64,000 nt of DNA. Source: Pseudohongiella sp. O18 (lineage in GTDB: Bacteria > Pseudomonadota > Gammaproteobacteria > Pseudomonadales > Pseudohongiellaceae). The DNA is taken from the NCBI RefSeq assembly GCF_021729085.1, contig NZ_JAJSAR010000002.1, positions 868,001 to 932,000 of the forward strand, given 5' to 3'. The notes beneath the pieces were generated by a model. That model did not search any database. It had not been told where the DNA came from and saw only the letters and a list, made by a program, of their open reading frames with translations. The first letter of the stretch is position 1, and the number at the start of each line of letters is the position of its first letter. Both the position numbers and the translations under genes were made by a program. Below are positions 29,447 to 32,715 of the stretch, piece by piece.

Positions 29447-30901
29447 TCAGCGCAGCTCCAGCACCAGGGTAGTGCCACGGCCATTACGTACCACGCGAAT
29501 CGGCACATAGCCAGTTGCAGGCAGCGACTCGACGACCGCGTCAAAGTCTGCAACCGACTCGATACGCTGGTGATTCAGTGCCACGATTACGTCGCCGCTG
29601 GCCAGGCCTGCCGCCCGGGCCGGACCATCGCGCAGCTGATCAATGACAACGCCACCTCTCGACAATTCAGGTACATCCTGCGCGAGCTCCGGATCCAGGG
29701 ACTCCACAGTCAGCGCCAGAGAGTTACCCTGGGCTGCCGGCCGTGGTACGCCAGCTGTCATGGTATCGCCGCCTGGCAGCGCTCCGACAACCACGTCCAA
29801 CGTCTGTCGCTGCCCGTCCCGCATGATCGTCAATGTGGCTTCTGTTCCCGGCCGCACCTGACCTACATAAAACGGCAATTGTGAAGACTCTTCAATAGCA
29901 ATACCGTTAAATGCCAGTACGATGTCATTGGTCTGCACACCCGCCTGCTCTGCGGGACTGCCAGGCTGAACTTCATCAACAAAAGCGCCGCTTGGTCTAT
30001 CCATATTGAAGGCCTGCGCGAGGGCATGGTCAACGTCCTTAATCATGACGCCCAGCAAACCACGGGACACGCTGCCACTCTCCCGCAGCTGCTCAACGAC
30101 GTTGAGAGCCATATTGCTGGGAATGGCAAATGAAATTCCGTTTGAACCGCCCGTGCTGCTGAGGATCTGCGAGTTGATACCTATCACCTCTCCAGCCAGG
30201 TTAAACAGGGGACCGCCGGAGTTGCCCTGGTTGATGGCCACATCGGTCTGTATGAAAGATACATAGTTTGCAGGGCCGCGAGAGGGCACGTTACGGGACT
30301 TGGCGCTGACAATGCCCGCTGCTGCTGAAAATTCCAGCCCAAAGGGTGAACCAATGGCCAATACCCACTCACCTACCCTGACCTGTTCAGAGTCGCCAAA
30401 CACCACAGAGTGCAGATCAGTGGCGTCAACCTTGATCAAGGCGACATCTGACAATTCATCGCTTCCGATCACATCAGCAATATACTCGCGTCTGTCGGTC
30501 ATCGTCACAGTGATGCGATCTGCATTGGCGACAACATGGTGATTGGTAATGATGTAGCCATCTTCACTGATAATGAAACCGGAACCCACGCCACCGCGCG
30601 GGCGCATATCTGGCAGATCCGGTATATCAGGAATCTCTCCCTCGGGCTGCAACTGCCGCAGCAGTTCTTCCAGGTCATTCTGCCGCGAGCCATCGCGCAC
30701 AGGCACCTGCTGACGGGTGGTGATATTGACGATGGCGGGCGAGTTCTGCTCAACCAGACTGGCGAAATCCGGCAGGCCATTCTGGGCCTGGGCTGAGCCG
30801 GTGAGCAGCATGACAAACAGTACTGTCAGCCACGTATTGCTGAACCGTCTGACTGTAACCCGGGCAAACTCCGGTAAACCCATCGCTCTGGCTGCCAACA
30901 T
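29447..30901 (-). CDS. mucD: Periplasmic Do-family serine protease (MucD/DegP-like)
   Basis: This 484-residue protease degrades misfolded envelope proteins. In Pseudomonas the MucD form dampens sigma-E/AlgU signalling. The signal peptide has an extended N-region and ends LLTGSAQAQ near residue 40. The catalytic triad is H122 in ITNHHVV, D152 in LSDVALIK and S228 in NQGNSGGPL. Two PDZ domains follow; the first has GAFVDEVQPGSPAEQAGVQ and the second has GGVVIDQLRDGPARAAGL. ATG 30901 has GGGAGAG upstream, whereas longer in-frame starts lack this. It is separated from rseA by a strong terminator, so it appears to be a separate transcription unit. Confidence 0.9.
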   Translation of the reverse strand: MLAARAMGLPEFARVTVRRFSNTWLTVLFVMLLTGSAQAQNGLPDFASLVEQNSPAIVNITTRQQVPVRDGSRQNDLEELLRQLQPEGEIPDIPDLPDMRPRGGVGSGFIISEDGYIITNHHVVANADRITVTMTDRREYIADVIGSDELSDVALIKVDATDLHSVVFGDSEQVRVGEWVLAIGSPFGLEFSAAAGIVSAKSRNVPSRGPANYVSFIQTDVAINQGNSGGPLFNLAGEVIGINSQILSSTGGSNGISFAIPSNMALNVVEQLRESGSVSRGLLGVMIKDVDHALAQAFNMDRPSGAFVDEVQPGSPAEQAGVQTNDIVLAFNGIAIEESSQLPFYVGQVRPGTEATLTIMRDGQRQTLDVVVGALPGGDTMTAGVPRPAAQGNSLALTVESLDPELAQDVPELSRGGVVIDQLRDGPARAAGLASGDVIVALNHQRIESVADFDAVVESLPATGYVPIRVVRNGRGTTLVLELR

Positions 30902-30932
30902 GCTCTCTCCCAACTGCTTGATTCGATGCTCT

Positions 30933-30961
30933 AACATACCCTGATGCGGCTCTGTCTTCAA
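30933..30961 (-). promoter_or_regulatory. Sigma-70-like promoter for the Do protease
   Basis: On the reverse strand, -35 TTGAAG (30956-30961) and -10 TATGTT (30933-30938) are 17 bases apart, about 32 bases before the start codon. No sigma-E motif (GAACTT) is visible in this gap, so the protease may be driven by the housekeeping factor. The -10 is imperfect. Confidence 0.4.
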
Positions 30962-31007
30962 TCCCGTGACAGAGCTGTGCTGTGCAGCACATGGAGTCAC
31001 ATGACAT

Positions 31008-31040
31008 AAAAAAAGCCCGGCACCCTCACGGGTCCGGGCT
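31008..31040 (-). terminator. Rho-independent terminator after rseA
   Basis: AGCCCGG (31014-31020) pairs with CCGGGCT (31034-31040), with an inner ACCC/GGGT stem and a four-base loop. On the reverse strand it is followed by seven T. It ends the rpoE-rseA unit and separates it from the protease gene. Confidence 0.85.
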
Positions 31041-31172
31041 GTGCAGTACACTCTTGCTCTCTACTTGCTACGCTTCCTTACGGTCCAAACGGTCTAAACG
31101 GTTCAACTTTCAATTCTCAATCAATCCCGTCGTCCATTATCGGCATGCCTGCTACATGCCTGTCGCATTCCC

Positions 31173-31859
31173 TTACGGCTGCTGAATCTGCTGTGAAGAA
31201 TCCACTGGTACCAGCTCACGGTCAGACACCGGGCGCAGCATCGGGGATTCCCGCAAAATGCTGAACGGTGCCGACTCCGAATCCACACGGGCCGGGATGT
31301 TCACGCTTTGAATGTACTCATTGAGACGCTGCTGCGCTTCCGCATCAACAGCGATCTGTCGTATCTCTACTGCGTTACTGCCAGACTCGGTCTGCTCGCT
31401 GGCGAGCGGCACGGCACCCGATGTTGATATGGAATCCCCTGGCTGCAACATTGATTGCATACCCACAAAAGCTGCCACGGCTACAGAGGCAGCGACGGCC
31501 AGCCGCGCCATACCCCGGCGCCAATGATTATTTCTGCCTTCTGCGCCAACCGCTGAGGTGGCCTCAGGCAATGACGGCTGCTGTTCCTCCGTGACAGCCT
31601 GCATCACGCGCGCATGCAGCGACAGGCTGTTGTCTGAGGGCAGCAAGGGATGCTGGACTGGCTCACCGGAGAGCACGGCTCGGGTCAGATTGAATCGTTC
31701 CCAGCGGGCCAACAGCTCAGGTTCGGCATCGAGCCTCGCCAACAGGCGGCGTAGTTCAAAATCGCTCAACTCGTCGTCCATGAGAGCCGACAGCGCTTCA
31801 TTATCCAGCTCGTCTTGTGTTTTCTGCGAATCCGGGTGACTCTGGCTGTCCTGCTTCAT
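31173..31859 (-). CDS. rseA: Anti-sigma-E factor RseA (MucA-like)
   Basis: RseA (228 residues) is an inner-membrane anti-sigma factor that holds RpoE until stress proteolysis frees it. The cytoplasmic anti-sigma domain contains NEALSALMDDELSDFELRRL and ARWERFNLTRAVLSGE. A single membrane segment lies near residues 116-134 (MARLAVAASVAVAAFVGMQ). A periplasmic tail follows. I chose ATG 31859 because AGAGG lies ten bases upstream, while it abuts the alternative ATG 31868. A hairpin/T-run and a sigma-E-type promoter lie in the 147-base gap after rpoE, so rseA can be made separately. rseB/mucB does not follow. Confidence 0.88.
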   Translation of the reverse strand: MKQDSQSHPDSQKTQDELDNEALSALMDDELSDFELRRLLARLDAEPELLARWERFNLTRAVLSGEPVQHPLLPSDNSLSLHARVMQAVTEEQQPSLPEATSAVGAEGRNNHWRRGMARLAVAASVAVAAFVGMQSMLQPGDSISTSGAVPLASEQTESGSNAVEIRQIAVDAEAQQRLNEYIQSVNIPARVDSESAPFSILRESPMLRPVSDRELVPVDSSQQIQQP

Positions 31860-31911
31860 GCAATACATACCTCTGCTTTACTTGTCTTACCGGTTTATCC
31901 GGTTTCAATGC

Positions 31912-31938
31912 TTTGACTATGCTGTTCGGGCTAAGTTC
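31912..31938 (-). promoter_or_regulatory. Sigma-E-type promoter in front of rseA
   Basis: On the reverse strand GAACTT (31933-31938, within GGGAACTT) is followed 16 bases later by TCAAA (31912-31916). This matches the extracytoplasmic sigma-E consensus GAACTT-N16-TCAAA/TCTGA exactly. It lies 53 bases upstream of the rseA ATG and downstream of rpoE, so RpoE could directly drive its own inhibitor. Confidence 0.7.
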
Positions 31939-31960
31939 CCATACCTGGCTCAATTCTGAC

Positions 31961-31980
31961 AAAAAAATGGCAGTTGCCAT
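31961..31980 (-). terminator. Small hairpin plus T-run between rpoE and rseA
   Basis: ATGGC (31967-31971) pairs with GCCAT (31976-31980) around a four-base loop, and on the reverse strand it runs into seven T. The stem is short, so it probably ends only part of the rpoE transcripts and lowers read-through into rseA. Confidence 0.5.
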
Positions 31981-32006
31981 GCTCAGAAAAGCTAAAGGGC
32001 CAGCGG

Positions 32007-32585
32007 TCAGGGTTTCATCAGCTCCTGAATTCGTTTATCTATCGCCTCGCGAGCCCGGAATATGCGCGATCGGACTGTGCCAACCGGGCAATCCATCACT
32101 TCCGTTATATCCTCGTAACTCAAACCGGAAAATTCGCGCAGGCTGAACGCAGTTTTGAGTTCTTCGGGCAGTTCCTCGATTGCCTGGTAGATGACGCGCC
32201 GCAAGTCTTCCCGCTCCAGGTTGGCCTCAGGACTCTCCAGCTCTCTCAGTGTGCTGGTATCGTCAACCTGCTGCGCGTCTTCCATATCCACATCAGTACT
32301 GGGAGGTCTTCGACCACGGGAAACCAGATGATTTTTTGCCGTGTTGACAGCTATACGGTAAAGCCAGGTGTAAAACGCACTATCACCCCGGAAACTGGGC
32401 AAAGCCCGGTAGGCCTTCAGGAAAGCTTCCTGAGCGACATCCTCTGCCTCATGCGGATCTTTGACAAACCTGCCTATCAGGCCAAGCACCTTGTGCTGGT
32501 AGCGGGTAACCAGCAATGAGAAAGCCCGGTCGTCATTTTGCAGAACCCGCTCAACCAGCTGGTTGTCAGTCACTTGATTCGTCAT
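32007..32585 (-). CDS. rpoE: Extracytoplasmic sigma factor E (AlgU/RpoE)
   Basis: RpoE (192 residues) is the group-4 sigma factor for envelope stress. Region 2 contains AFSLLVTRYQHKVLGLIGRF and DPHEAEDVAQEAFLKAYRAL. Region 4 contains LSYEDITEVMDCPVGTVRSR, the helix-turn-helix that reads GAACTT promoters. ATG 32585 has AAGGGAAG upstream, and this start aligns with E. coli and Pseudomonas RpoE. It is divergent from nadB, the same layout as in Pseudomonas. A sigma-E-like promoter precedes it, consistent with autoregulation. Confidence 0.95.
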   Translation of the reverse strand: MTNQVTDNQLVERVLQNDDRAFSLLVTRYQHKVLGLIGRFVKDPHEAEDVAQEAFLKAYRALPSFRGDSAFYTWLYRIAVNTAKNHLVSRGRRPPSTDVDMEDAQQVDDTSTLRELESPEANLEREDLRRVIYQAIEELPEELKTAFSLREFSGLSYEDITEVMDCPVGTVRSRIFRAREAIDKRIQELMKP

Positions 32586-32634
32586 ACTTCCCTTATGTGC
32601 CTCAACTTTTGCTTCCATCATCAAGCAAAAAGAC

Positions 32635-32661
32635 AATGACCACCACTATTTGCAAAAGTTC
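32635..32661 (-). promoter_or_regulatory. Sigma-E-type autoregulatory promoter of rpoE
   Basis: On the reverse strand GAACTT (32656-32661) is followed after 16 bases by TCATT (32635-32639). The -35 is a perfect match and the -10 keeps the essential TC but departs in the last two bases. It lies about 50 bases before the rpoE ATG, inside the divergent rpoE-nadB spacer. Confidence 0.6.
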
Positions 32662-32715
32662 TGAGAGTCTATAGAATTCTTCGACCTTGCACCACAGCAG
32701 AAGGCTGACACGACT

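Follow-up and report, generated by a model that had tools for sequence, protein, structure and literature searches.

In this study, we examined the rpoE-rseA locus of the window, the whole 64,000-nucleotide stretch of DNA from Pseudohongiella sp. O18 that was analysed. It is probable that each of the two genes, rpoE and rseA, has in front of it a promoter of the RpoE (sigma-E/AlgU) class and that the locus works with a negative feedback by RseA excess. The promoter located in the gap between the two genes, which would serve rseA alone, is found in other genomes too, though not in all of them, and within the family the rpoE promoter is less constant than it. Textbook drawings of sigma-E and AlgU circuits emphasise that the sigma factor switches on its own gene along with that of its inhibitor.

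Methods

In the family, 119 genomes were searched; 105 had RpoE at 1e-60 and all 105 loci were retrieved. Three cut loci (L155, L196 and L217) were left out before scoring. No rseA start was recognised in L193 and L211, so 100 family loci were scored for the gap promoter; 101 were classed for the promoter pattern. The order sample consisted of 145 genomes, of which 134 matched, four of them in the family. Among the remaining 130, 126 were scanned (G160, G205, G230 and G257 were omitted), and the rseA start was recognised in 110 of these 126 loci outside the family. The named loci numbered 80; L009-L015 were excluded because they belong to the family or are nearest to it. The start was recognised in 71 of the 73 others, and all 73 were classed.

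The gap-scan motif was GGAACTT, N14-16 and a GTC[AT]AA-like box, and the stretch scanned began at the stop codon of rpoE and extended as far as the conserved beginning of RseA. The motif weights were set by hand from a consensus, and the fourth letter of the -10 box was opened to T after the rpoE promoters and some gap sequences had been viewed. In the E. coli K-12 control, the best two hits on the rpoE strand were the rpoE promoter (score 16.1) and rseA P3 (10.7). The start given by the second hit lies 228 nt before rseA, which equals the published leader length of P3 (PMC8595263). On the opposite strand, a site directed toward lepA scored 12.5, above P3; a single hit of this size can therefore be false.

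Results

Organization of the locus

The features of the locus are as follows.

29447..31051, minus strand, degP/mucD-type periplasmic serine protease gene, 3' of rseA (TIGR02037, 467.7 bits)
31173..31859, minus strand, rseA, anti-sigma factor (PF03872 RseA_N, 42.3 bits, cut-off 24)
31912..31939, minus strand, GGAACTT-N15-GTCAAA, predicted rseA promoter of the sigma-E type, between rpoE and rseA (sequence and pattern search)
31961..31980, minus strand, weak hairpin ATGGC-AACT-GCCAT (5-bp stem, loop of 4) with a T run, 3' of rpoE, a possible leaky terminator
32007..32585, minus strand, rpoE, ECF sigma factor of the RpoE/AlgU type, 192 aa (TIGR02939, 298.6 bits, cut-off 236.15; Sigma70_r2 and r4_2)
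32635..32662, minus strand, predicted sigma-E-type promoter of rpoE, AGAACTT-N15-GTCATT (sequence and pattern search)
32649..32677, plus strand, sigma-70-like promoter TTTGCA-N17-TAGAAT toward nadB, overlapping the -35 box of the rpoE promoter (32635-32662, minus strand)

The two adjacent genes encode an RpoE equivalog and a protein with the RseA_N domain, both above the cut-offs of their models, and form an RpoE/AlgU and RseA/MucA pair. The rseA product is below the cut-off of the NCBIfam RseA model (38.1 vs 263). The gap between the genes is 147 nt up to the ATG at 31859 and 138 nt up to an alternative in-frame ATG at 31868; AGAGG at 31874-31870 on the minus strand fits the start at 31859. 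RseB (PF03888) had no match in the own genome in a search in which the E. coli control matched, and no rseB lies between rseA and degP/mucD. In several loci of the family groups g2, g3 and g8, the ORF next to rseA looked RseC-like by eye, having a cysteine motif.

The nadB gene is encoded on the plus strand from 32716 and diverges from rpoE. Two polymerases may exclude each other at the overlapping nadB-directed and rpoE promoters. Sigma-70-like sites in the region numbered 3, against 3.1 expected in shuffles. The nadB-directed sigma-70-like elements were present in 8/8 genus loci keeping GAACTT before rpoE, and in the family 10/77 reached 9 of 12.

Two predicted sigma-E promoters

The original prediction described the two boxes as GAACTT-N16-TCATT and GAACTT-N16-TCAAA. 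Both are present on the minus strand, being the same as GAACTT-N15-GTCATT (32661-32635) and GAACTT-N15-GTCAAA (31938-31912). The spacing of the two sites is matched. From the end of the rpoE promoter to the rpoE ATG the distance is 50 nt, and from the end of the rseA promoter to the ATG at 31859 it is 52 nt. Transcription of rpoE would be expected to start near 32629, giving a leader of about 44 nt, and that of rseA near 31905, with a leader of about 46 nt as counted to the 31859 ATG. The motif scores were 20.3 for the rseA promoter and 14.7 for the rpoE promoter, whose sequence is the same in L009. Judged by its sequence, the latter is an autoregulatory promoter of the GAACTT type. A hairpin, ACCGG-ATAAA-CCGGT (31889-31906, minus strand), stands at the beginning of the expected rseA leader; this hairpin is also found in L116 and was not seen in L117. 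The 48-nt leader folds better than 199/200 shuffles.

The motif by itself is not rare. GAACTT-N14..16-GTCA was not enriched in the own genome (3.47 Mb, 4 contigs), with 27 sites vs 26 for the reversed control, and a regulon of the own genome defined by the motif was rejected on the same count. The window contains 3 matches, a number reached by 10/100 shuffles. Sites with exactly N15 numbered 8 in the own genome (2 x 3.47 Mb), and two of these precede rpoE and rseA. The other six are mostly within long open frames, and from their frequency about 1e-4 would be expected in the 147-nt gap on one strand. Because the motif is no commoner genome-wide than its reversed control, the case rests on position and on relatives, and the comparison of relatives is a stronger test than placement in the own genome.

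Conservation of the gap promoter

At a score of at least 10, the gap promoter was found in 58/100 family loci, against 3 on the reverse strand and 3.8 expected from dinucleotide shuffles. At a score of at least 12, the corresponding numbers were 49/100, 1 and 1.0. The loosest threshold, at least 4, gave 69, 44 and 52.5 and thus little signal. Conservation of the boxes in close relatives, which the original prediction had named as a check, was borne out: at the score of 10, all 13 scored loci of the window's genus (g1) have the gap promoter. It was also found in g2 (6/6), g3 (4/4), g5 (13/13) and g8 (7/7), in 15/56 loci of the mixed group g4 and in 0/1 of g6. The nearest relative of the window genome is G045, with an RpoE that is 99% identical. 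The suggestion that the window is set apart from its relatives was not supported, because the gap promoter occurs throughout the genus and throughout another four groups of genus level in the family.

The spacer was N15 in 56 and N16 in 2 of the 58 gap promoters, under a motif that itself favours 15. In the genus, GGAACT[TCA] and GTC are always kept, and the letters between and around them vary. The median rpoE-rseA gap was 155 nt with the gap promoter and 60 nt without it. In all g2 and g3 and most g8 scored loci (e.g. L143, L200 and L161), the -35 box of the rseA promoter was GGAATT, not GGAACT.

In other families of the order, the gap promoter reached a score of 10 in 23/110 loci, with 1 on the reverse strand. 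All 23 were among the 41 loci with a gap of at least 70 nt, and none was among the 69 with a shorter gap. The 71 named loci outside the family, mostly from Pseudomonas, contained one gap promoter, in Alteromonas (L088), with a weaker match of 11.7. The RpoE tree (194 columns) was too weak to decide between a single and a repeated origin of the gap promoter: 21 changes were required on the order tree, and supported branches forced only 2 for the loci outside the family and 2 for those within it.

Apparent loss of the rpoE promoter

The rpoE promoter reached a score of 10 in 75/101 family loci, and shuffled rpoE upstream stretches reached the cut-off in 2/101. When the 101 loci were classed, 33 had both promoters, 42 the rpoE promoter only, 26 the rseA promoter only and none neither; with a stricter cut-off, the classes were 31, 42, 28 and 0. 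The association gave a Fisher value of 5.8e-8 with kinship uncorrected. Once kinship was counted, the link between loss of the one and presence of the other gave a sign test p of 1, with 6 pairs on supported branches and no power. The either-or arrangement is thus a strong pattern in the sequences, in which dependence of one promoter on the other is unproven.

In the genus, 5/13 loci have no recognisable rpoE promoter and all 5 have the rseA promoter. The site is plainly changed in L125 and L126, and a degenerate remnant is left in L118, L122 and L124; taken together with L136 and L141, the last three make up the loci with degenerate remnants or a shortened spacer. Some rpoE promoters scored as absent may hence be weak, not dead. 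In the RpoE tree of 100 rows, one side of 43 rows, made up of g1, g2, g3, g5 and g8 in full, carries the rseA promoter without exception. On this tree, 9 changes are required for the rseA-only state, at least 6 of them on supported branches. Outside the family, the 110 loci were divided into 29 with both promoters, 50 with the rpoE promoter only, 17 with rseA's own only and 14 with neither, which is a trend only (p 0.09). That the rseA promoter is often kept where the rpoE promoter is unrecognisable suggests that shut-off may be the better protected half of the circuit.

Sigma-E-like elements inside rpoE

A sigma-E-like element inside rpoE is present in many genomes whose rpoE-rseA gap is short. 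Sites inside rpoE that reached a score of 12 were found in 25/126 order loci, vs 2.3 expected by synonymous codon permutation within the gene, and in 41/73 named loci outside the family, vs 3.25. One of the 126 loci reached the cut-off on the opposite strand. With 100 column-scrambled motifs, the largest excess over the synonymous permutation was 6.7, vs 22.7 for the real motif. Most of these sites (19/25 in the order and 36/41 among the named loci) coincide with the codons for [VLI]TLRE..GLSY, some 140-180 nt upstream of the stop codon. An example, present in many Pseudomonas, is TTAACTT-N15-GTCTGA. A single genus makes up most of the named set, and the -35 box has T for the G of GAACTT. The rpoE genes with an internal element over [VLI]TLRE..GLSYE include L019, L021, L028, L045, L055, L225 and L307.

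In the window's family, 0/104 rpoE genes reached 12 (1.26 expected), and the promoter is intergenic, unlike E. coli P3. The first residue of the stretch equivalent to TLRE..GLSYE is Phe in 88/88 family sequences, which makes the AAC of the -35 box impossible there. At the first Leu of the element, codon skew was strong in the 52 Pseudomonas-like loci, where it ranked second among 126 codons, and unremarkable in the order sample. Ser at position 9 was skewed in the order sample and also in the window's family, which has no element, so codon skew alone is no proof of an internal promoter. Mutual exclusion of gap and internal promoters was considered as well and set aside: 1/110 order loci has both (Fisher 0.023), a figure with no power after kinship. 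In P. fluorescens F113, published work shows algU-mucA read-through by RT-PCR and a stronger RsmA pull-down of RNA upstream of mucA (PMC3282751); these RNA data neither prove nor exclude an internal start in algU.

Discussion

Separate sigma-E-type promoters for rpoE and for rseA alone, as the original prediction proposed, are supported by the two sites and by their conservation in relatives. From these, from the matched spacing and from the loss pattern, we infer a circuit in which both promoters would depend on RpoE. RpoE freed by proteolysis of RseA would start both of them, the first giving a long rpoE-rseA-degP transcript and the second a short rseA-degP transcript. The second promoter would add RseA and the protease without RpoE, and RseA would outgrow RpoE during the response. 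When proteolysis stops, RseA would rebind RpoE, with a strong negative feedback and a quick shut-off as the result. A delay in this feedback, which had also been proposed, is not suggested by the anatomy of the locus. Both promoters belong to one class, so RseA would rise with RpoE and beyond it, not later.

It had further been proposed that a terminator after rpoE, together with the second promoter, makes two nearly separate units whose ratio is set by partial termination. This is unlikely. The hairpin and the T run do exist, the 41-nt stretch around them folds better than 197/200 shuffles (z -2.48), and T runs of at least 5 between rpoE and the promoter occur in 10/13 genus loci, against A runs in 0/13. 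However, the stem has 5 bp and by itself amounts to -5.3 kcal/mol, and terminator-like sites in 6 kb numbered 5 vs 4.6 +/- 2.3 in shuffles, i.e. chance level. The full hairpin is found in only 2/13 genus loci (L001 and L116), which are nearly the same species, and in the whole family T runs before the promoter were found in 19/58 and A runs in 9/58. In g3 and g5, the promoter starts 1 to 19 nt past the rpoE stop codon, which leaves a terminator no space. No intrinsic terminator with a stable G+C-rich stem and T run, above chance and conserved, was found between rpoE and rseA. Thus, the hairpin described earlier is real, its standing as a terminator above chance or conserved is not borne out, and setting of the feedback strength by partial termination is unsupported. 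In the window's species the hairpin may act as a leaky terminator and reduce read-through, with a general role unsupported. The stretch from the gap promoter to rseA was also considered as the place of a terminator or small RNA, and this was rejected: no terminator-like site was present there in loci with a score of at least 9, and the only Rfam match near the gap was a chance one (SNORD94, E 0.47, below gathering).

The gap element may instead be a promoter of another ECF sigma factor of the own genome, which would make rseA a link between RpoE and a second stress signal. Many ECF sigma factors use -35 boxes of the GGAAC type, and the own genome has 11 further ECF-like matches to RpoE. We consider this unlikely, because the gap promoter and the rpoE promoter have GAACTT, N15 and GTC in common. 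In g2, g3 and g8, the gap box drifts to GGAATT and the -10 box GTCTA matches that of the rpoE promoters of g2, and in 26 loci the gap promoter stands in for the rpoE promoter as the sole site of the sigma-E type. It is most improbable that the two gap motifs arose by chance and persisted through common descent. In the genome, the motif by itself occurs as often as its reversed control; however, the boxes and their spacing stay across genera while spacer letters and flanks change, and the stricter family count (49/100) contrasts with 1.0 expected and 1 on the reverse strand.

Such two-promoter wiring is known in E. coli. E. coli has two sigma-E-dependent promoters, rpoE P and rseA P3, and P3 yields rseA without rpoE (PMC8595263). 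Judged by sequence, the window resembles it in that the inhibitor would likewise be made from two sigma-E-type promoters. The window differs in that its site is intergenic and nearer to the consensus: P3 lies inside rpoE, with a 228-nt leader and a score of 10.7, whereas the gap promoter would have a leader of about 46 nt and scores 20.3. In addition, rseB and rseC follow rseA in E. coli, whereas degP follows it in the window, with no RseB found in the genome. The algU-mucABD locus of Pseudomonas has the same pair of sigma and anti-sigma factors and an autoregulated GAACTT promoter before algU (PMC3247240). It differs in having a gap of about 31 nt without a promoter, and 36/73 named loci outside the family carry the sigma-E-like element over TLRE..GLSYE inside algU/rpoE. 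In a literature search directed mostly to papers other than subscription ones, we found no report of an intergenic sigma-E promoter of rseA/mucA and none of an internal sigma-E promoter in algU. In rpoE-rseA-mucD of Xylella fastidiosa, rpoE is reportedly not induced and rseA is under sigma-E, resembling the lineages with the rseA promoter only.

The rseA promoter persists in lineages in which the rpoE promoter decays, so what is protected in the circuit seems to be sigma-E control of the inhibitor, and self-activation of rpoE would be dispensable. Lineages with the rseA promoter only would have a purely negative loop, with rpoE made from some other promoter. We tentatively extend this to the order, as a possibility held with less than even confidence: what is invariant may be that sigma-E controls its inhibitor, as opposed to activating its own gene. 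An inhibitor-only promoter would have arisen at different sites, such as the gap, the TLRE..GLSYE codons in rpoE (Pseudomonas and other families) and further upstream in rpoE (E. coli); the rpoE promoter would then be free to decay, leaving purely negative feedback.

If the pattern holds, evolution keeps the inhibitor's own promoter and self-activation is optional. The pattern would also make it possible to ask directly whether shut-off is what such circuits mainly serve, by comparing natural lineages of each type of wiring (both promoters, rpoE only and rseA only). In many species that are drawn with one operon promoter, mucA/rseA may then be expressed from a promoter hidden in the codons of the sigma factor gene.
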